DNA from: a virus | Strand: one strand, 5' to 3' | IMG/VR virus record: IMGVR_UViG_3300028809_000051 | Span: 1 to 30,274 of that record | DNA: 30,274 nucleotides | Shown here: piece after piece, positions 2,813-30,211 of the stretch | Layout of the letters: each line of letters starts with the position of its first letter | Position numbering within the stretch: the stretch's first letter is position 1 | The notes under the pieces: model-generated | Database searches by the model: none | The model's input: only the letters and a program-made list of their open reading frames with translations | What the model was told of the DNA's origin: nothing | Position numbers and translations under genes: made by a program

Positions 2813-3541
2813 TTAGTTGTAGACCGAGATGCGGACGATACCCGCACCGCCGGACCCGCCGGACCAGCTGCCGTTGAAGGCTGCCGCACCGCCACCGCCA
2901 CCGCCCGCGAAGGTCTGGCCGGCGCCGCCGTTTTCGTTGTTGGCCGCGCCCTTACCGCCAGCGCCGGGCCAGCCGGACGCGCCGCCATCACCGCCGATCT
3001 TGTGGAAGGCCGTGACCAGTACCGCCGAGCCACCGGGCTGTCCCTGACGCCGTATCTGACCGGTCCCGACCGCACCGGATACGGCACCCTTCCCGATGCC
3101 GCTCGTGCTGCTGGCCAGCATCTGCACCGTGGCGCCAACACCACCGGGGCCGACCACCAGCGTGCCGAAGGTGGAATCCCCACCGTTCGCCCCCGCCGCG
3201 TTGAAGGTGCCGCCGGTCCCGCCGTTGCCACCGGCCACCGGGACGATCGGGGGAAGGCTGGACGCTTCGAGCCACGACGCGCAGTACGTTCCGCCCGAAC
3301 CACCGCCCTGCGCGATGCCCGTAGTGCCGCTCGTGTCCTGGGCGCCCGCGCCACCGCCACCGCCACCGATACACTCGACGAAGACCCAGGCTGCACCGGG
3401 GTAGTCCGCAATCTGGAAGTTCAGAGGCACCAGGTACGAAACCGTGATCGTGGTCTGGTATCCGACCGAACCGGGCTTCAGTGTCAGCTGCCCCGTATCG
3501 TCCACGTTGAAGTAAGTGCTGTCTACACAGACGCGCGCCAT
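2813..3541 (-). CDS. Glycine-rich minor tail protein (probable tail-tip adhesin), copy B
   Basis: 242 residues from ATG 3541, ribosome site GGGGAAGGA. The N-terminal 45 residues are beta-like and differ from copy A. The rest aligns by eye with it: IGGGGGGAGA, GGGSGGTYCASWLEASSLP against GGGGGGSYSESWVEVSTLA, GANGGDSTFGTLVVGPGG against GTGGDSSFGAVVVAKGG, and a common GGAG-hydrophobic C-terminus. The two are tandem paralogues with different connecting loops, as expected for adhesins under host-range selection. A possible -10 box TAGGAT overlaps the stop codon of the upstream gene (3580-3575). Confidence 0.75.
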   Translation of the reverse strand: MARVCVDSTYFNVDDTGQLTLKPGSVGYQTTITVSYLVPLNFQIADYPGAAWVFVECIGGGGGGAGAQDTSGTTGIAQGGGSGGTYCASWLEASSLPPIVPVAGGNGGTGGTFNAAGANGGDSTFGTLVVGPGGVGATVQMLASSTSGIGKGAVSGAVGTGQIRRQGQPGGSAVLVTAFHKIGGDGGASGWPGAGGKGAANNENGGAGQTFAGGGGGGAAAFNGSWSGGSGGAGIVRISVYN

Positions 3542-3577
3542 GTTGCGGTCCTTCCCCTCGGGTTGCTGCTCTGAATC

Positions 3578-4108
3578 CTACGGCCAGCGTGCTGCGACAT
3601 AGACCGTTGCACCGGGCACCGGCTGGCCGGACAGGTCCCACACGTGCACGGTTATGGCCGTTGCAGTGCGCGCACTCACCGTTGCAACGGCCGGCTGGTC
3701 CGCGTCCACCGTCGCAACGACCACCGGGACCGTGCCACGGTCTTCGTACTGCCACGTTGCGCGGCCGTCGCCGTCCACCATGAAGGCCGCCGAGTCCTGC
3801 AACGGCTGCGACACGGCCACGCCCTCGGCCGCAACGAACGTTGCGACGCCTTCGGACGGCTGCGACGCGGCATACACCTGCACCGCTTCGGCCTTCGCCA
3901 TCGCGCTGGCCATCGACTCGGGCGCAACGCTCATCGTGGCGCCCGTTGCAGCTGCTTGAGCAGACACGGCAGCCGCAGCCGAGTTGGTCACGGTGGTGAC
4001 GTCGGACCTGCGACGGTTGCTGTACCGGGCCTGATACGCGACGGTCCGCAGGATGCCCGCCAGCGGTTGGCCGGGGATCCTGCGTGAAGGACTGTTGCGC
4101 TGCGCCAT
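3578..4108 (-). CDS. Minor tail protein with Ala/Val-rich middle and C-terminal beta domain
   Basis: The 176-residue protein starts at ATG 4108, which shares one base with the upstream stop (TGATG); a GTG one codon earlier is an alternative. The N-terminus is basic (MAQRNSPSRRIPGQPLAGILR). Residues about 40-95 are Ala-rich, probably helical (SAAAAVSAQAAATG ... MASAMAKAEAVQVYAA). The C-terminal part, ending DLSGQPVPGATVYVAARWP, looks like a small Ig-like beta domain with the transthyretin-like pattern 'G.PVPGATV'. Its place in a coupled operon between the Gp37-like protein and the adhesins argues for a tail-tip part. No precise family is recognised. Confidence 0.7.
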   Translation of the reverse strand: MAQRNSPSRRIPGQPLAGILRTVAYQARYSNRRRSDVTTVTNSAAAAVSAQAAATGATMSVAPESMASAMAKAEAVQVYAASQPSEGVATFVAAEGVAVSQPLQDSAAFMVDGDGRATWQYEDRGTVPVVVATVDADQPAVATVSARTATAITVHVWDLSGQPVPGATVYVAARWP

Positions 4109-5136: not shown

Positions 5137-6476
5137 CAGTACCCCTTCCCGAGGACGCTGACGCGGACCAGCGCGTCCGCTGCCGGGGGCGAGTCGCTGT
5201 CCGTCTCGATGCACACGCAGTACGTGGCACAGGTCAGGTCCGTGACTTCCACCGGCCCGCCGTTCTGGTTCCCGTACGCCGTGGACGCGGTCCGGCAGCC
5301 GAGGCCACCAGCTGTCACCACGGCGCGCCCGATGGACCCGTCCAGGGTGAGCGTGCCGCGCGGCGGGATGTACGTCACCGTGAAGTCCTGTATGTAGTTG
5401 CACAAGTTGCTGTCCGCCAGGTCGCCACAGTCCCCCACGAAGCCGGCAGGCCGCTCGTACCACGTCACCCGGATGTTGCGCAGCTCGTACGCGCCCGCGT
5501 AGATCTCAATCAGCGGTGCGTCGCTGGCCCACTGCGGCCGGGCGGACAGGTTCACGCTGTAGCAGGCGCGATCAGGTACGAGCGGCGCGCAAAAGCTGCC
5601 TGCCGGGACGGTCGGCTGCGGCGGCAACGGCACCCGGTTGCGGGGGTCCGCGTACGGGTCACCTGGCGTGACGCACGACTGAAACAGGCACTCGGCCGGG
5701 TCGCAGTTGTGGTCCGGATCCGCGTTGTCGGACACGCACCAGTCCACGCAAACGTCCTGGTCCGCGATGGGCGGGACGACTTCGAGCACCGGGATCGGAT
5801 CGGTCCACGCCCACGGGGACGCGGCCACCAGGACAAATTCCACTTCGATCAGCTCGGCGCCGGCAGCGCAGGCGGACCTGCCGCAGGCACCCGTGGACCG
5901 GCGGCCGGTCTCGGTGGGACCGTCCACCAGGGACGTGCGGCGGAACGTCCGGCGGTGCGCGGCGTTGAACTGTGCCGGTGTCATCCCGTCGTCGGGGCAG
6001 CAGTTGTAGAGCGTGAAGCAGTCGCCGTCGCACGTGTCGCCGGTGCACCCGTTCAGCAAGTCGGACAGGAACTGCATGCCGTACTGCGCGCCGCAGCACG
6101 TGGCACCGATCAGTACCCCGGTGACCACGATGCTGCGCGGCTGCTCACGCGTCGGACCGAAGACACCGCCACCACCCACGGCGTTGCTCACCGAGCGGCG
6201 GCGCGGGTTGTCGTCCGTCCCGCTCATGGTGAGCGGCAGGAAGCCCAGGAACTCGGCGGACTCTGGAACGGCCGGGTCGTACCAGGGCGCCGGTTCCACC
6301 TCGGCGTCAGGAACGGTGTACGGGCCCTCGGCCCCGAGGACTTCGGCGGTCAGGCTCGGACAGTGGCAGATGTCCGGACCGGTGTCGAACGGACTGCCCA
6401 CGGTGCGCAGGTACGTTTGAAGCCGGGTGGTGTTCCAGACCTCGGTCCCGTTGGCGCTGGCGTAGTCGATCAGCAC
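5136..6476 (-). CDS. Cysteine-rich minor tail protein (distal-tail-like)
   Basis: 446 residues from GTG 6476, the first start after an in-frame stop, overlapping the end of the upstream gene by 7 bp. The first 200 residues carry LGFLPLTMSG, SNAVGGGGVFGP and RSIVVTGVLIGATCCGAQYGM, as in actinophage distal-tail/minor tail proteins that join the tail tube to the tip. Cysteines are unusually frequent: CHCPS, CCGAQ, CTGDTCDGDCF, NCCPDDG, and in the C-terminal third CRTASTAYGNQ and CATYCVCIETD. A Pro-rich segment (NRVPLPPQPTVPAG, about residue 285) separates two beta-rich halves. The assignment rests on gene order and pattern. Confidence 0.7.
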   Translation of the reverse strand: MLIDYASANGTEVWNTTRLQTYLRTVGSPFDTGPDICHCPSLTAEVLGAEGPYTVPDAEVEPAPWYDPAVPESAEFLGFLPLTMSGTDDNPRRRSVSNAVGGGGVFGPTREQPRSIVVTGVLIGATCCGAQYGMQFLSDLLNGCTGDTCDGDCFTLYNCCPDDGMTPAQFNAAHRRTFRRTSLVDGPTETGRRSTGACGRSACAAGAELIEVEFVLVAASPWAWTDPIPVLEVVPPIADQDVCVDWCVSDNADPDHNCDPAECLFQSCVTPGDPYADPRNRVPLPPQPTVPAGSFCAPLVPDRACYSVNLSARPQWASDAPLIEIYAGAYELRNIRVTWYERPAGFVGDCGDLADSNLCNYIQDFTVTYIPPRGTLTLDGSIGRAVVTAGGLGCRTASTAYGNQNGGPVEVTDLTCATYCVCIETDSDSPPAADALVRVSVLGKGY

Positions 6477-6769
6477 GCTTCATCGCCCCTCTCGCGGCGC
6501 CGCAGCGGGGTGACGTTGTCCGGCACCCGCTGGACCGTGCGGGCCCCGTACGCGTCCGCCTGCGGCTTCAGGTTGCAGCACGCCAGCTGGCACGCCGCGA
6601 CCTGCCGGTTCCATGGGCAGCAGTCCCCGGTGCAGTCGGGGGCGTCATAGAACCGGTGTTTGCCCGTGGCGTTCAGGGCCCACCGGGGCGGCAGCGGGTA
6701 CGCGCCGCTCGGGCTGATCACGCCCAGCAGGCGGAACAGTCCGTACTTCAGCCGAGTGGTAACGCGCAT
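6470..6769 (-). CDS. Small Cys-rich protein at the head of the minor tail operon
   Basis: 99 residues from ATG 6769. The basic N-terminus is followed by GVISPSGAYPLPPRWALN and a cysteine cluster (DCTGDCCPWNRQVAACQLACCNL, residues about 45-68; seven Cys) that could bind metal or form disulfides. The C-terminus is Arg-rich. It is the first gene after repeat element R1 and has a -10 box about 30 bp upstream. It overlaps the next tail gene by 7 bp, so it is probably a minor virion or tail assembly protein. Family not recognised. Confidence 0.7.
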   Translation of the reverse strand: MRVTTRLKYGLFRLLGVISPSGAYPLPPRWALNATGKHRFYDAPDCTGDCCPWNRQVAACQLACCNLKPQADAYGARTVQRVPDNVTPLRRRERGDEAC

Positions 6770-6798
6770 CGGGTCCCCTTCAAGTGGTTGCTGAGCAC

Positions 6799-6804
6799 AG
6801 CTTA
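6799..6804 (-). promoter_or_regulatory. -10 box (TAAGCT) for the minor tail operon
   Basis: On the minus strand GGTAAGCTGTG lies 30 bp before ATG 6769. The same GGTAAGCTG occurs before the DUF1360 gene (19473-19468). In both places it lies just left of an R element. No convincing -35 is seen. Confidence 0.45.
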
Positions 6805-6857
6805 CCCGTGGACAGAAACGGCTGACGTTCCGTCACCGGGCCTGGCAGAGCGCGACC

Positions 6858-7107
6858 GTGGCAGAAGTGGGCAGAAACGGCCGTCGCATCGTCGCAGGTC
6901 AGGGCCTTATGGCAGCAAATACCAACCTTCGCGTATAGAGACACTTCTGGTGTGGCAGGTGCGTCACCTTCCGTACGCGGGCCCGCGCGCAACGTAGTGC
7001 CACCCATGCCTGACCACATACCCGCCTAATACGAAAGGTTTGGTTCCAGCTGCCACAAGGCCCTGACCTGCGGTTTCTCTCGGCTCGTTTCTGCCCACTT
7101 CTGCCAC
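6858..7107. repeat. Repeat element R1: about 250-bp imperfect palindrome of two outward-facing units
   Basis: A 341-bp stretch without a gene. Outer arms 6858-6879 and 7086-7107 are perfect 22-bp inverted repeats containing GGCAGAAGTGGGCAGAAACG. Inner arms 6893-6916 and 7049-7072 match over 24 bp with one mismatch. Each half also has CCAACCTT-type sequence at its inner border, and the AT-richer centre contains TATACG (minus) and TAATAC (plus) followed by GAAGG/GAAAGG. Thus each half reads outward as GAAAGGTTGG, then GCTGCCACAAGGCCCTGACC, then CGTTTCTGCCCACTTCTGCC. The left inner arm is identical over 34 bp (6897-6930) to element R2. It lies between the neck operon end and the tail operon promoter. 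Candidates are a divergent promoter/leader pair, an ncRNA locus, a replication or recombination site, or a MITE-like element. Confidence 0.85.
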
Positions 7108-7120
7108 TCTGCACACAGTG

Positions 7121-7498
7121 TCACCCCGCGTCACGCAGCGCATTCGTCAGGAAGGGGTCACCCCGGTAACCGGGGTGGTTGACCACCTTCGCGAAGACGA
7201 CGCGGCCCCCTACCTCGAAGCGCAGCACCCCGCCGGAACGCCTCGGCCTGATCAGGTGCCGGGGCGTTCCGTCGTGCACGAACTGCGTGGCGGGGTGCGT
7301 GCTGATCACCTCGATGCGCTTGTCCTGGTAGGGGCCCACCACGATGCCGTCCGCCATGCTGCCGTGCGGCGCCGCGTACCGGCGGGCCAGCGCCGCCACC
7401 CGTTCGGCCTTCCGCTGCAACAGCCGCTCACCGGGCCCGCCCACGGCGGACAGCAGCCGCTGGAAGCGGGACGGATCGATGGACACCCGAGCGGGCAT
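7121..7498 (-). CDS. HK97 gp10-like neck/tail completion protein
   Basis: 125 residues. ATG 7498 overlaps the upstream stop by one base (TGATG). The N-terminal half is helical and basic (FQRLLSAVGGPGERLLQRKAERVAALARRYA). The middle has HPATQFVHDGTPRHLI and the end has HPGYRGDPFLTNALRDAG. The 'HPG....PFL..AL' ending is characteristic of the HK97 gp10/minor tail component family, which sits at the head-tail joint and helps connect the tail tube. It is the last gene of a coupled neck operon (9020 to 7121). No strong hairpin follows; R1 begins 14 bp after the stop. Confidence 0.75.
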   Translation of the reverse strand: MPARVSIDPSRFQRLLSAVGGPGERLLQRKAERVAALARRYAAPHGSMADGIVVGPYQDKRIEVISTHPATQFVHDGTPRHLIRPRRSGGVLRFEVGGRVVFAKVVNHPGYRGDPFLTNALRDAG

Positions 7499-9108: not shown

Positions 9109-9873
9109 TCACGGCGTCGGCGTCGGGACCGTGGCGAAGTCGCAGAGGGGGTCCGGCACGGGCGGCGCGATCGTAGTGATCTGCATCCGGCGGTGACAGG
9201 TGTCCCCGAGCGGCGTCAGCATCGGACCGGCCACCGGGGCGGCCGGCGGGACGGACACGTCCACCACGTCGTACGGGCCGACGCCCCACTGTCCCCCGGC
9301 CTTCGAGTTGCCCACCAGCTGGAAGGTGACCGCTTCGTTTCCGATGGACAGGTCCGAGATGTACGCGTTACTGATCCACGGCAGCAGCACGTACAGGTAC
9401 CGCTGCTGGCCCGTCTCGGTGCAGTTCTGGCCCACCAGCTCAGCCCAGAACTCAAGGGCGAAGCCACCCGCGCACTGGATCGCACAGTCATCGAAGCCGA
9501 CCAGTTCCCCACCCGCGTCCAGCACCTCGGGCTGGTTGGTGAGCACGGACGTCAGCTGGGGCGAGACCTGGAAGAAGTTGAATTCCAGGTCGTAGCCGAG
9601 CAGTGTGGGGCAGCCACGCTTCACACCGCAGAGGGTGCCATTGGCCGCGCGGTAGATGACGTCATCGGCCACGTCCACGTTCGGGTTCATGGCGACGGAC
9701 GCCACGCACTCGGACACGAACGCGTTCTCGCCGGGAATCGGAAGCCCGCAGTTATCGACGCGGGTAGCCCGGACAACGTCCAGATTTGCGATCAAGTCAC
9801 ACGAGATGATAGCCTCACAGGTATTCGGACGATGGCCCAACGGCTTCACGCCACGCGGCACCCGGCCTAACAC
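9109..9873 (-). CDS. Probable major tail (tube) protein
   Basis: Up to 254 residues if GTG 9873 is used. Other in-frame starts are GTG 9861, GTG 9849 and TTG 9840, and none has a good ribosome site, so the start is uncertain. The folded region starts near CEAIISCDLIANLDVVRATRVD. Segments LLGYDLEFNFFQVSPQLTSVLT, LEFWAELVG, QRYLYVLLPWISNAYISDLSIGNEAVTFQLVG and GVGPYDVVDV, and an MQITTIAPPVPDP ending, fit actinophage major tail proteins (a beta-barrel tube subunit). Being monocistronic behind its own terminator fits high expression. It stands before, not after, the neck genes, which is unusual. The upstream flank carries a motif shared with the capsid gene and an inserted HNH gene. Confidence 0.7.
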   Translation of the reverse strand: MLGRVPRGVKPLGHRPNTCEAIISCDLIANLDVVRATRVDNCGLPIPGENAFVSECVASVAMNPNVDVADDVIYRAANGTLCGVKRGCPTLLGYDLEFNFFQVSPQLTSVLTNQPEVLDAGGELVGFDDCAIQCAGGFALEFWAELVGQNCTETGQQRYLYVLLPWISNAYISDLSIGNEAVTFQLVGNSKAGGQWGVGPYDVVDVSVPPAAPVAGPMLTPLGDTCHRRMQITTIAPPVPDPLCDFATVPTPTP

Positions 9874-9897
9874 CAGCAGTTACCAGACATGATAACC
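9860..9897 (-). promoter_or_regulatory. 38-bp motif before the major tail gene, shared with the capsid gene
   Basis: The plus strand begins ACCCGGCCTAACACCAGCAG and ends ACATGATAACC; 32 of 38 positions equal the site at 13759-13796. On the minus strand it reads GGTTATCATGT ... GTTAGGCCGGGT and leads into the tail tube gene. An inner dyad is present (AGTTACC/GATAACC). It could be a phage late promoter, an operator or a structured leader. Confidence 0.6.
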
Positions 9898-9909
9898 GTG
9901 GGGGGAACC

Positions 9910-13729: not shown

Positions 13730-13758
13730 CGTGGCAGTCTCTTTCTCAAGTGAAAGGG

Positions 13759-13796
13759 ACCCGGCCTAACGCCAGCAGCTATCGCACATGATAGCC
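13759..13796 (-). promoter_or_regulatory. 38-bp motif with dyad before the capsid gene
   Basis: The plus strand begins ACCCGGCCTAACGCCAGCAG; 32 of 38 bases equal the site before the major tail gene. It contains CTATC and GATAG around GCACAT, a perfect dyad, with an outer GCCAGC/GCTGGC pair. In the other copy the T-A pair replaces the C-G pair at one stem position, a compensating change. It lies about 30 bp before ATG 13729. The tape measure leader shares only ACCCGGCCTA and CAGCAG (22928-22948). Probable late promoter, operator or leader structure. Confidence 0.6.
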
Positions 13797-13825
13797 GCTG
13801 GCGTGGACAGGTCCGGGCAGGTTGC

Positions 13826-19435: not shown

Positions 19436-19467
19436 GTCTTTCCTTCCGTCAGTCCCGGTGTGTGGCC

Positions 19468-19473
19468 AGCTTA
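19468..19473 (-). promoter_or_regulatory. -10 box (TAAGCT) for the DUF1360-portal operon
   Basis: The minus strand reads CCGGTAAGCTGGCC 33 bp before GTG 19435, the same GGTAAGCTG as before the minor tail operon. Both lie just beyond an R element. No clear -35. Confidence 0.45.
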
Positions 19474-19529
19474 CCGGGGTTGCGGGGCGGCCCCAGATAC
19501 GGGCTGAGACCCCAGGACGTTGCGGGTGC

Positions 19530-19770
19530 GGCACTTATGGCAGAAACGTCTTCGCTGGTCAGGGCCTTATGGCAGCAAATACCAACCTTCCCTATGTGAA
19601 CGGTTTTTGTGTACGGGGCCCTAGGTACCACGCAGCGTGCGCGCGCGGGCACATGTAGTAGTGCCGTAGGTGCCTGACGTAAAAACACGTACGTATAGAA
19701 AGGTTGGCTGGCGCTGCCACAACGGCCTGACCTGCAACGATGCCCCGGCCGTTTCTGCCCACTTCTGCCG
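19530..19770. repeat. Repeat element R2: second copy of the R1 palindromic element
   Basis: Lies in the 398-bp gene-free stretch between the tape measure and DUF1360 genes. Inner arms 19557-19576 and 19713-19732 are inverted repeats with two mismatches; outer arms include GGCAGAAACG (19539-19548) and CGTTTCTGCC (19750-19759). Positions 19557-19590 are identical over 34 bp to R1 6897-6930. CGTTTCTGCCCACTTCTGCC at 19750-19769 is identical to R1. The centre differs from R1 but keeps GTAGTGCC and TGCCTGAC, with TATAGA before GAAAGG on the plus side. Conserved borders around a diverged centre mean the arms, not the middle, are under selection or recently copied. Confidence 0.85.
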
Positions 19771-27170: not shown

Positions 27171-29219
27171 CTACCTTACCGGGTGCCAGCAGTTGTCGTC
27201 GTCCCGAACCACCAGCCCGTCCACTTCCATCTGATCCAGCCGGCGCTTCACGACGGACTTGCTCGCACCGATCACGCGGGCCAGCTCGGACAGCGTCTTG
27301 CACGGGTCGTCTCCCAGGGCCCGGATGATCTGGTCGTCCCGGTCCTCGGCGGACACGCGGTTCCTCGGGCCTTCCAGCAGCGGCAGCGTGATCGTGTCGC
27401 CCACGGTCTCGTCCCACGGGTCCGACGCCGTGGTGGCCGCCAGCGCCTTCCCGTCCGCTTCGATCGCCTTGCGGGCGACCACGTCCGCGCTCGACGCGCG
27501 CCCGGTCTCGCGGCGCCAGATGGGACGGTCCGGCAGCGCGATGACGTCCGCCGGGGACATGGCCCGCATCTTCATCATCTGCGGGATGGACTTCGAACCG
27601 AGGTCCTGGTTCCGGAACAGGGCGAAGCCAGGCATGGGCAGTTCGTTCGCCTTCCACCCCTTCTCGATGGCGTCGTTGCCGAAGACGACCTGCGCGTCCG
27701 TGGTGGTGGCGAGCGCCAGGGACAGCCGGTGCACGAGCTGGCCCGCAATCTGCGAGTCCAGGCCGTGTCCGTCACCGGACAGCGCAGGCTTCTGGGTGCA
27801 CCAGACCAGGATGATCTCGGCCGCCCGGTACTTCCGGGCGATGGTCCTCAGAGACGTCATGATGTCCTGGTAGTCCGAGCGCCCGTCTTCGTCCTTCGGG
27901 TACTTCGTCTTGCTGTCGCTGATCAGCTCACCGCCTTCGTCCACGAAGACCGTGATGCGCGGCCGGCTCGGGCTGATGCTGACCACGTCCTGGCCGCGCG
28001 GGATGAGCTGCAACCGCGACTCGCCCTCGGCGATCAGCTCATCGCAGAGTTCCCGCATCTCGTCCAGCTCACTGGCGATGCGGGCCCGGTGGTTCCAGGT
28101 CTTCGCTTCGATGTACTTCCGGTCGAAGATGACCAGCCGGTGGTCCTCGTACTCGGACGCCTCGGCCATGAGCGGCCGGGCGGACCAGGACTTGCCGGAC
28201 CCGGTGGTCCCCGCGAACAGGATCCGCTTACCGAGCGGGACCGGGACTGTCTCGCCAGTGATCGTGTTGACCGCCCACGCGTCGCCCGGCTTCCAGCCGG
28301 TCATGTCCAGCCCGTCCGCAGAGCTGCGGGTGCGCAGCGTCATCCGGGCGTGACCGCCGGTCTTCCCCTCACGCAGTTCCAGGCGCGTCCCCTCACGCAG
28401 CCGCAACGCGGCGCGCAGCTGCGCTTCCTTCTTCCGCAACGCGTCCAGGTCCAGCGTCCCGTTCAGGGTCAGCTTCACCTGGATCCCCGAGTTGGTCAGC
28501 GTTGCGGCCCCTGCAACGACGTCGGACAGGCCGCGCGGTTCCGCAACGCCGTGCCACACCTTCGGGTCCAGCCGCTGCAACAGGTCGCGCTCTTCCTGCG
28601 ACGGCTGCAACGCTTCCAGCACAGGGTCCACGGCGTCGCGCGACACGTGGCGTCCGCCGAGCAACACCGTTGCGATGTTGAGCGCGATCGCTGCAACGCT
28701 CGTTCCAGCCGCAACGTCCGATGCGGCGCTGTCCGACACGAGCCACCACAGACCCGTTGCAGCGGTGTGCACCGCGTGGCACCGCACGGCCAGCTGCGGC
28801 AGCGTCAGCGGGTAAGCGCGACGCGCCTCAGCGCGTACCGAGGACGCCTCGGCGGCCAGCTGCTTCGTGTCGCGGACCACGATGCGCGCGGCACGGCGCT
28901 CGCCGTTGAAGACGTTCCACCACGCCACCTCACCGCGTGCGTTCTCGAACGCCTTGCGGTCGCGGCGCAGGTCGCGCATGGCGTCACGGTGCGCCCTGTT
29001 GGCTTCCAGCAGCGCCTTCCGGGCGTCCTCGGTACGGGCCTCGGTACGGGCGTCCGCCACCTCGAACCAGCGCTGTGCGGGCATGGCCAGCGGCTTGCCC
29101 GCCAGGTCCAGGCCGCGCGCCAACGTGTCGCCGGCCGAAGCCAGACGGTCCGTCAGCGTCGGTCCCGGGGGCTGCGGTTTCAGCTCTGGGATGAGCGCTG
29201 GTGTGTCGAATGCGTCCAC
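27171..29219 (-). CDS. FtsK/SpoIIIE-like DNA translocase
   Basis: 682 residues from GTG 29219, chosen because AGGAAGGACAGGACC directly precedes it. Residues 55-135 are charged helices; about 150-190 may hold one or two membrane segments (AATGLWWLVS, VAAIALNIATVLLGG). The motor domain has Walker A GTTGSGKS (337-344), GDAWAVNTITGETVPVPLG before it, FDRKYIEAKTW after it, and Walker B ITVFVDEGGELI (423-431). The end (about 630-682, TLSELARVIGASKSVVKRRLDQMEVDGLVVR) is a winged helix like the DNA-reading gamma domain of FtsK or the TraB/SpoIIIE-type translocases of Streptomyces plasmids. Such proteins pump double-stranded DNA. In a phage it could act in DNA transfer, segregation or plasmid-like maintenance. 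The exact role is unknown. Confidence 0.88.
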   Translation of the reverse strand: MDAFDTPALIPELKPQPPGPTLTDRLASAGDTLARGLDLAGKPLAMPAQRWFEVADARTEARTEDARKALLEANRAHRDAMRDLRRDRKAFENARGEVAWWNVFNGERRAARIVVRDTKQLAAEASSVRAEARRAYPLTLPQLAVRCHAVHTAATGLWWLVSDSAASDVAAGTSVAAIALNIATVLLGGRHVSRDAVDPVLEALQPSQEERDLLQRLDPKVWHGVAEPRGLSDVVAGAATLTNSGIQVKLTLNGTLDLDALRKKEAQLRAALRLREGTRLELREGKTGGHARMTLRTRSSADGLDMTGWKPGDAWAVNTITGETVPVPLGKRILFAGTTGSGKSWSARPLMAEASEYEDHRLVIFDRKYIEAKTWNHRARIASELDEMRELCDELIAEGESRLQLIPRGQDVVSISPSRPRITVFVDEGGELISDSKTKYPKDEDGRSDYQDIMTSLRTIARKYRAAEIILVWCTQKPALSGDGHGLDSQIAGQLVHRLSLALATTTDAQVVFGNDAIEKGWKANELPMPGFALFRNQDLGSKSIPQMMKMRAMSPADVIALPDRPIWRRETGRASSADVVARKAIEADGKALAATTASDPWDETVGDTITLPLLEGPRNRVSAEDRDDQIIRALGDDPCKTLSELARVIGASKSVVKRRLDQMEVDGLVVRDDDNCWHPVR

Positions 29220-29262
29220 GGTCCTGTCCTTCCTGGTGGTTCCGTTTAGGGGTTGCCAGGCG

Positions 29263-29268
29263 ACTGTA
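29263..29268 (-). promoter_or_regulatory. -10 box (TACAGT) for the FtsK-like gene
   Basis: The minus strand reads CGTGGTACAGTCGCC 44 bp before GTG 29219. The octamer GGTACAGT equals that before the DUF6197 gene. The upstream GGAACGG repeats would lie where an activator or repressor could bind. Confidence 0.45.
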
Positions 29269-29309
29269 CCACGGTGTTGCCCCGTTCGCACAGACCAGCA
29301 GGTGAGGGG

Positions 29310-29433
29310 CCGTTCCCGTGGCCGTTCCAACGCCCGTTCCCGATCATGTTCGGGCCCGTTCCTACGTGCGAGAACGACCGATTTATGATCTTTTGCCGGG
29401 GGTGGATAGGGGGTCTGCCGTTCCAGCCGTTCC
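29310..29433. repeat. Six short direct repeats CCGTTCC (GGAACGG) upstream of the FtsK-like gene
   Basis: CCGTTCC occurs at 29310, 29322, 29334, 29356, 29418 and 29427, all in one orientation. The first three are spaced exactly 12 bp. Between 29366 and 29400 lies an AT-richer patch (ATTTATGATCTTTTG). This fills most of the 321-bp gene-free stretch 29220-29541. Such iterons could be operator sites, a replication start, or loading sites for the adjacent translocase. The last is attractive because FtsK-type and TraB-type motors read short repeated octamers, but it is only an inference. Confidence 0.7.
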
Positions 29434-29490
29434 AACCGTCGTACCCGCGTGCACCCGTACGCCTTCCGGGTGCTGCAACTTTCGAACAAA

Positions 29491-29524
29491 GCAGCAGCCC
29501 CCGCCATGTGACGGGGGCTGCTGC
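29491..29524 (-). terminator. Terminator after the 57-residue gene
   Basis: GCAGCAGCCCCCG (29491-29503) and CGGGGGCTGCTGC (29512-29524) form a 13-bp perfect stem with an 8-nt loop. On the minus strand a TTTGTT tract follows, as in intrinsic terminators. Confidence 0.9.
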
Positions 29525-29541: not shown

Positions 29542-29715
29542 TCAGTCCTCGGGGGTGAGGTGCACGCCGATCAGCGAGAGTCCCCGGTCGTCAGCCATGT
29601 CCGCGACGACCCGGTGGGCGTCCTTCTCGGTCTTCGCTTCCACCCTGCCCGTGGCCTTCACGGTCACGTCGGTGTAGGGGACGTTCCCGTGAGCCTTATA
29701 CGTGAAGCGCGCCAT
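29542..29715 (-). CDS. Small protein of 57 residues
   Basis: Starts at ATG 29715 and ends at TGA 29544-29542: MARFTYKAHGNVPYTDVTVKATG, then RVEAKTEKDAHRVVADMADDRGLSLIGVHLTPED. The layout is two strands, one helix and one strand, a compact alpha/beta fold. AAGGAAGCAGG precedes the ATG. It has its own promoter (29755-29783) and terminator, so it is expressed as a single gene. Family not recognised. Confidence 0.75.
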   Translation of the reverse strand: MARFTYKAHGNVPYTDVTVKATGRVEAKTEKDAHRVVADMADDRGLSLIGVHLTPED

Positions 29716-29754
29716 GATGTCCTGCTTCCTTCGTCGCGGTTGCCTACGAGACCG

Positions 29755-29783
29755 ACTCTACACACTCTGGGCCTACAGCACAA
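29755..29783 (-). promoter_or_regulatory. Promoter of the 57-residue gene
   Basis: On the minus strand TTGTGC (29783-29778), a 17-bp spacer, then TAGAGT (29760-29755). This is a good sigma-70-type pair, placed directly after the preceding terminator. It matches the layout of the promoter at 30183-30211. Confidence 0.65.
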
Positions 29784-29825: not shown

Positions 29826-30143
29826 TCAGCCCTGGTGCATCGCGTGCGAGCAGCGGCCCCAAGCCGGGTCACAGTCCGGAACGTTGCGCGTCCTGCCGTC
29901 CAGGCAGATGTCACACAGCACGTAGTTCGGATTGTCCAGCGCGGCCTGCGTCGGAAAGCCGAAGTCCGGGATCATGCTGCTCGGTGCGGCGGCGCCGCAG
30001 TGGCGGTAGGTCTCGCCCCGGCCAAACCAGGTCCAGACGCGACCGTGGTCGTCGGTGATGTCCGGGTGACCGGCTGCCTCGGCCGCGTGCATCTCGGCCT
30101 CGGCACGGGTCCAGTTGGTGATGAGTCGCGTAACGGCGTCCAT
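29826..30143 (-). CDS. Small Cys/His-containing protein of 105 residues
   Basis: Starts at ATG 30143 with AAGGAAGCAGGGCAGC before it. An N-terminal helix (VTRLITNWTRAEAEMHAAEAAG) leads to VWTWFGRGETYRHCGAA and a C-terminal NYVLCDICLDGRTRNVPDCDPAWGRCSHAMH. The Cys and His spacing (H-C, C-x2-C, C, C-S-H) could bind zinc. It may be a DNA-, RNA- or protein-binding early regulator, but no family is recognised. It is a single-gene unit with its own promoter and terminator. Confidence 0.75.
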   Translation of the reverse strand: MDAVTRLITNWTRAEAEMHAAEAAGHPDITDDHGRVWTWFGRGETYRHCGAAAPSSMIPDFGFPTQAALDNPNYVLCDICLDGRTRNVPDCDPAWGRCSHAMHQG

Positions 30144-30182
30144 GCTGCCCTGCTTCCTTCGCTGCGGTTGCTTACAAGGAAG

Positions 30183-30211
30183 ACGATACAGGCCGCACCC
30201 TGACAGCGCAA
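30183..30211 (-). promoter_or_regulatory. Promoter of the 105-residue gene
   Basis: On the minus strand TTGCGC (30211-30206), a 17-bp spacer, then TATCGT (30188-30183). The leader GCAACCGC...CGAAGGAAGCAGG that follows is nearly identical to that of the 57-residue gene. Confidence 0.65.

Follow-up and report, generated by a model that had tools for sequence, protein, structure and literature searches.

The stretch of DNA at positions 6858-7107 raises the question of what purpose a 250-bp dyad serves in an intergenic gap of a phage genome. The window analysed here, i.e. the whole 30,274-nt IMG/VR record IMGVR_UViG_3300028809_000051, contains genes that match, in reverse orientation, those of the late region in Woodruffvirus (cluster BG) phages of Streptomyces, and as a fragment it lacks both the primase-helicase gene and a third element, C, described below. 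A preliminary description of the dyad, R1, had favoured a divergent promoter pair making two RNAs with the same leader, and had named a replication or recombination site and a non-autonomous mobile element as alternatives; it is the replication or recombination site that the evidence favours. The palindrome is most likely a docking site at which the phage DNA-copying machinery starts or stalls, which would mean several start points. Judging from sequence comparison, R1 and a second palindrome, R2, probably belong to a set of three dyad-symmetric elements that a lytic Woodruffvirus uses as replication origins (initiator-binding sites), with a primase-helicase of the SaPI5-Rep/D5 type acting on them.

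Two large palindromes in the window

No other dyad in the whole window is as strong as R1 (score 86) and R2 (score 98); 300 first-order Markov shuffles gave a mean of 14-15 and never more than 26, and among unrelated 360-bp windows the best reached 37. The outer 22-bp arms of R1 are perfect, as originally described, and the inner 24-bp arms (6893-6916/7049-7072) contain one mismatch and sit within a 44-nt, 80% pair. The 130-bp centre had been taken to be unique, but it carries an imperfect GC-rich palindrome that is found again in other elements. Likewise, the count of four copies of one unit holds for the window (both sides of R1, and in R2 a left copy at 19530-19600 and a right one at about 19695-19769) but not for a complete genome, which has six units in three elements. 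The parts of both elements are listed in Table 1.

Table 1. Features of R1 and R2, in window positions
Feature	Position	Strand	Remark
Element B (R1), whole palindromic element	6858..7107	.	Dyad score 86, shuffle maximum 26; syntenic in relatives
Genes flanking R1	gp19, stop at 7121; gp20, ORF 6470-6769	-	
R1 left outer iterons, GTGGCAGAAGTGGGCAGAAACG	6858..6879	-	Two GGCAGAA repeats at 10-bp spacing; perfect inverted partner 7086-7107
R1 left CTGACCTGC box	6894..6902	-	+ strand reading GCAGGTCAG
R1 left inner iteron, GGCCTTATGGCAGC	6903..6916	-	
R1 left AT-richer box, outward ...CTATACGCGAAGGTTGGTATTT	6917..6940	-	Candidate unwinding segment; cross-element alignment, GC dip
R1 central GC-rich imperfect palindrome, TACGCGGGCCCGCGCGCAACGTA	6974..6996	.	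Alignment
R1 right AT-richer box, CTAATACGAAAGGTTTGGTTCCA	7026..7048	+	Alignment
R1 right inner iteron, GCTGCCACAAGGCC	7049..7062	+	
R1 right CTGACCTGC box	7063..7071	+	
R1 right outer iterons, CGTTTCTGCCCACTTCTGCCAC	7086..7107	+	
Element A (R2), upstream of gp9/portal operon (minus strand)	19530..19769	.	Dyad score 98, shuffle maximum 26
R2 left outer iterons, GGCACTTATGGCAGAAACG	19530..19548	-	
R2 left box, outward CTGACCAGC	19554..19562	-	One mismatch
R2 left inner iteron, GGCCTTATGGCAGC	19563..19576	-	
R2 right inner iteron, GCTGCCACAACGGCC	19713..19727	+	
R2 right CTGACCTGC box	19727..19735	+	
R2 right outer iterons, CGTTTCTGCCCACTTCTGCC	19750..19769	+	
GGTAAGCTG, -10-like promoter motif for gp20 operon	6798..6806	-	Outside R1
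GGTAAGCTG, -10-like promoter motif for gp9/portal operon	19467..19475	-	Outside R2

Three syntenic sites per genome

Exactly three elements occupy the same loci in all seven complete reference relatives (TP1604, YDN12, Geonosis, Abt2graduatex2, Xkcd426, Mischief19 and phiSAJS1). Element A, R2 in the window, is located between the tape measure gene and gp9/portal, upstream of the portal operon; element B, R1 in the window, lies between gp19 and gp20, upstream of the minor-tail operon; and element C separates the leftward primase(-helicase) gene from the rightward gp50 operon. In TP1604, YDN12, Geonosis and Abt2graduatex2 alike, a profile made from the four unit sequences of the window finds exactly six units, which form three divergent pairs. 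The profile is weak on the elements of Xkcd426 and misses those of Mischief19 and phiSAJS1; large palindromes are present in the same three intergenic gaps of these phages.

IMG/VR contigs were also scanned for dyads, independently of sequence, upstream of their homologues of primase, portal and gp21. Nearly every close relative whose upstream DNA extended far enough had a palindrome (scores 45-160, as against 56 at most in coding controls), whereas phages with a portal about 50% identical or less had none. In one exception, contig L047, the box and iterons are placed further upstream than the scanned stretch. Element C was present in six IMG/VR contigs in addition to the seven reference genomes, and as a half element in contig L022. 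A close relative, L106 (IMGVR_UViG_3300042698_000010), seems to lack the palindrome at B (around 3000-4000), which counts against a role as origin. The same contig encodes a helicase with a C-terminal domain of the TTCCCGC type (see below) and carries iteron hairpins elsewhere.

About 20 relatives carry the unit, which is thus not peculiar to the window. Among viral contigs, the element patterns matched only within this phage lineage, and the one TTCCCGC-type pattern that was searched matched none of 84,980 prokaryote genomes; this confinement, together with the three syntenic places, speaks against a non-autonomous mobile element. The genome description of Geonosis contains neither the word 'repeat' nor the word 'promoter', and we found no description of the elements in the papers searched on this phage group, which include the announcement of the cluster BG genomes; as most subscription papers were outside the search, priority is not established.

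A constant layout with genome-specific iterons

The 43 elements share a constant layout that reads from the centre outward on both sides: GC-rich centre, AT-richer box, inner iterons, CTGACCTGC box and outer iterons. The AT-richer boxes (e.g. CTATACGNNAAGGTTGG) have a GC content of approximately 45-55% in a 69% GC genome and lie off-centre, adjoining the inner iterons. The dyad centre itself is GC-rich rather than AT-rich, and this argues against an origin. The CTGACCTGC box (9 bp, at most one mismatch) occurs in 86/86 half-elements in one or the other orientation, the chance level for one orientation being about 5% of random windows; 73 halves have it in the usual orientation and 13, from Geonosis, Abt2graduatex2 and Mischief19, have it inverted.

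The iteron type differs between phages and is identical at all sites within one genome. GGCAGAA iterons are found in the BG phages, Xkcd426 and some contigs, the TTCCCGCG type in phiSAJS1 and most IMG/VR relatives, and GCATGCTGAGTGAA/GAGCATGCA in Mischief19, while element B of contig L103 (2069-2335), a phage for which no primase-helicase was found, displays a further type, AACTCGGGTAACTGTC/GAAACCCATAACTGCCC. The iterons are concentrated at the elements: the three sites account for 8/8 copies of GCATGCTGAGTGAA and 6/6 of AACTATCTCG in Mischief19 and for 16/16 of TTCCCGCGAA in phiSAJS1, and every match to the hairpin iteron of a 62-kb IMG/VR phage falls at three places.

Do the elements serve transcription?

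The divergent promoter pair initially proposed would yield a pair of small or antisense RNAs that share their leader, and the BG phages do have TATAC or TAATAC adjoining GAAAGG at the inner edge of the unit. This edge is, however, not common to all relatives, a scan for sigma-70-like sites revealed no such promoter around R1 (6700-7300), and the promoter-like sequences that exist are located outside the element. Nor did the units fold beyond shuffles as RNA: z ranged from +0.40 to +1.40 for the four units, the four copies fold differently, and there was no Rfam match at the gathering threshold. No single-subunit RNA polymerase (PF00940) was found, but this search is uninformative because the control genomes were also silent. 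The orientation of both the iterons and the CTGACCTGC box flips between phages, which disfavours a leader RNA, since such flips are possible for DNA sites but are not expected of leader RNAs; furthermore, the element is symmetric even where a gene to transcribe exists on one side only. We consider it highly improbable that the elements are promoters of this kind.

The main rival to an origin is that the elements are operator or enhancer modules, in which a phage DNA-binding protein on the iterons at three operon heads would switch or couple transcription of late A, late B and early C, perhaps by looping. There are only two copies of GGTAAGCTG in the window, one beside each element, and in most relatives the motif occurs at those two places only, roughly 14-70 bp beyond A and B; a TTGACN-(16-18)-TANNNT sequence lies beside C in Geonosis, Abt2graduatex2 and Xkcd426. 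That A and B are always just upstream of a promoter-like motif counts against an origin, as a transcriptional role also fits. In the same direction, A and B retain their downstream genes even where those upstream differ, a leftward gene is present on the other side in some phages, and small HTH proteins (gp45, gp69) are encoded. On the other hand, the spacing between element and motif varies, gp8 is in some phages preceded by a related motif that is not accompanied by an element, and the left arm is equally well kept where the leftward gene is absent. It is, moreover, a domain of the initiator helicase that tracks the iteron type (see below), gp45 and gp69 having been compared less systematically. 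On balance, we find an operator function unlikely.

Exchange between sites within a genome

The longest identical stretch between different sites of one genome is 80 bp in TP1604, 58 bp in YDN12, 75 bp in Geonosis, 142 bp in Abt2graduatex2, 70 bp in Xkcd426, 64 bp in Mischief19 and 106 bp in phiSAJS1, and it often joins opposite sides; in Abt2graduatex2, A and C share identical arms of 142 and 139 bp in inverted orientation. The same site in different genomes usually has only 6-45 bp in common, with 100 bp for the left side of C in TP1604 and YDN12. We conclude from this that the sites exchange sequence within the genome and change in concert. The tape-measure and major-tail/adaptor blocks of phiSAJS1 (L018) are on exchanged sides of A and B when compared to BG phages such as TP1604 (L008), a swap that recombination at the elements could have helped.

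Such exchange, between sites and sides in Abt2graduatex2 and phiSAJS1 and of whole blocks across A and B in the latter, might indicate that the elements are chiefly recombination, segregation/DNA-partition or packaging sites for a RuvC-like resolvase, an exonuclease or an FtsK-like translocase, and RuvC- and FtsK-like proteins are indeed encoded. However, repeated origins with recombination-dependent replication would also display exchange between sites, phage-specific iteron arrays call for a sequence-specific binder, and octamer signals of the FtsK kind would be spread and polar. We regard this as distinctly unlikely to be their main function. The window itself encodes an FtsK/SpoIIIE-like translocase (27171-29507), here in a lytic phage; the C-terminus of this protein gives a weak MarR-like (winged-helix) match, which recalls the DNA-reading domains of FtsK and Streptomyces TraB.

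The primase-helicase gp49 as candidate iteron binder

The early gene beside C encodes, in TP1604, gp49, which has a TOPRIM-like N-terminus, D5_N, an SF3-type AAA core and a C-terminal winged-helix-like domain; the Pfam domains D5_N and DUF5906 were found in gp49 from relatives, as the window stops short of the gene. The best solved relative is the SaPI5 primase-helicase (7ola, E 4.5e-12 by sequence), which was also matched by fold (E 1.7e-5) from a partial low-confidence model. AlphaFold models of the initiator and of its C-terminal fragment are confident for the N-terminal part only, and the fragment model (pLDDT 53), consisting of three helices and two short strands, is compatible with, without proving, a winged helix. 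In the SaPI Rep helicases it is the C-terminal domain that recognises the origin iterons, with the protein apparently acting as two hexamers; similar behaviour in vitro has been described for the related Cch2 (PMC7581432).

The C-terminal domain of gp49 covaries with the iteron type. Its recognition helix/wing (region about 591-665) separates the GGCAGAA from the TTCCCGC types without exception, at N629Q, M634, V642, a one-residue wing insertion, G645 and S646R: GGCAGAA phages have N629, M634, G645 and S646 and no wing insertion, and TTCCCGC phages have Q629, I/V634, one inserted wing residue, D/Q645 and R646. In the rest of gp49, the TTCCCGC phages are as distant from each other (0.63-0.70) as from the BG phages, the L023/L024 and L026/L028/L031 groups excepted. 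In the case of L022, the helicase placed the contig in the GGCAGAA type before the upstream DNA was read, and the half C element at the contig end has TTCTGCC iterons. In L030 the C-terminal domain is unrelated (24% identity versus 65% in the AAA core), and no dyad, box or iteron was found upstream of its primase gene. It should be noted that the helicase tree needs two changes, that it provides one independent pair, and that a single origin of the TTCCCGC type was not rejected (AU test, p-AU 0.157); the association of iteron and helicase may thus rest on few events.

Other products were also considered as iteron binders. No DNA-binding domain was recognised in gp50, of which only the N-terminal third is kept across types, or in gp52, and gp46, considered alongside them, was set aside.

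Three putative origins and comparison with known systems

For the elements as origins, we infer binding, melting, firing, bidirectionality and a division of labour between C and A/B, which might proceed as follows. gp49 would bind the iterons on both arms via its C-terminal domain and assemble two oppositely facing helicase complexes, melting would follow at the AT-richer boxes next to the inner iterons, and two forks would start from the element. In the late region, the role of A and B would be that of secondary origins or of fork barriers that promote concatemer formation, as proposed for SPP1 oriR. Element C is close to the detrended GC-skew minimum in three of the four BG genomes, a measure confounded by gene orientation, and there is no such minimum near C in YDN12, Xkcd426 or Mischief19. 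Woodruffviruses are circularly permuted (PMC5511901).

The Bacillus phage SPP1 has two origins (oriL/oriR) some 12-13 kb apart, one of which is intergenic in the late region, and the same initiator binds both; fork stalling at oriR has been proposed to start concatemer synthesis with a resolvase and an exonuclease (PMC6316719, PMC3485210). SPP1 and the Woodruffviruses are alike in being lytic headful siphoviruses whose initiator-binding sites, putative ones in the Woodruffviruses, lie both in the replication region and between genes of the late region, in combining direct repeats with an AT-rich or, in the Woodruffviruses, AT-richer region, and in encoding a Holliday-junction resolvase and an exonuclease; the RuvC-like resolvase and exonuclease encoded here are what the SPP1 scheme needs. 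C, A and B share iterons and box and may be sites for a common initiator, as in paired origins of the SPP1 type. SPP1 differs in having two sites rather than three, which have not been described as large dyads with mirrored arms, and in using the initiator gp38 with a separate loader and a DnaB-type helicase instead of a D5/SF3-type primase-helicase. With three matching sites per genome, of which two lie in the late region, the Woodruffviruses would take further the notion, derived from SPP1, that concatemer synthesis is set off by a secondary origin.

The SaPI and SCCmec replicons (SaPI Rep, Cch2; PMC7581432) resemble the present system in their D5_N/Primase_Cterm initiator helicase, SaPI5 Rep being the closest solved structure, and in an origin that adjoins the initiator gene, as does the iteron array of C. 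These elements, however, have one origin each, downstream of the gene, and are satellites or cassettes, in contrast to an autonomous lytic phage whose structural region holds two more copies. In the alpha protein of satellite phage P4, primase, helicase and origin recognition are united in one D5-type protein (PMC8628076, PMC9611036). An iteron origin with a self-loading initiator helicase is of a known kind, and what appears to be new is the three-fold mirror-symmetric arrangement with a coordinated change of specificity. P4 also has two separated iteron regions, ori and crr, similar to the elements described here, but these are not 250-bp dyads and do not lie in a structural gene region. Herpes simplex virus has three palindromic origins (oriL/oriS), one of them between divergent replication genes; as its initiator is unrelated, as is the virus, and its origin centre AT-rich, the analogy is architectural only.

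To our knowledge, replication origins are known for few actinophages. The sequence comparison points to a specific pair of origin and initiator in a family with cultured members (Geonosis, DSM 114972; PMC11536984), and the natural iteron variants with matched helicase variants constitute a ready-made specificity series. More broadly, and tentatively, we suggest as a possibility that three matching mirror-symmetric origins are used for replication in a family of lytic phages, that the two in the structural region serve as late origins or fork barriers in concatemer formation, that recombination between sites keeps their specificities alike, and that iterons and the DNA-reading domain of the initiator switch together, resulting in replication incompatibility groups between related phages.

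Other repeats in the window

Two further repeats were observed. A 42-bp repeat, TATCATG..TAgCTGCTGG.gTTAGGCCGGGT, at 9857-9898 and 13756-13797 (minus strand) is located upstream of the gene at 9109-9873 and of the major capsid gene, and in TP1604, YDN12 and Xkcd426 its motif likewise stands directly before the capsid gene; it may represent a leader or hairpin that belongs to highly expressed genes. A 51-bp repeat at 29712-29762 and 30140-30190 (minus strand) directly precedes start codons (GCAACCGCGACGAAGGAAGCAGGACATCATGG) and has a TAGAGT -10-like hexamer in one copy, and similar leaders recur at several places in the relatives.
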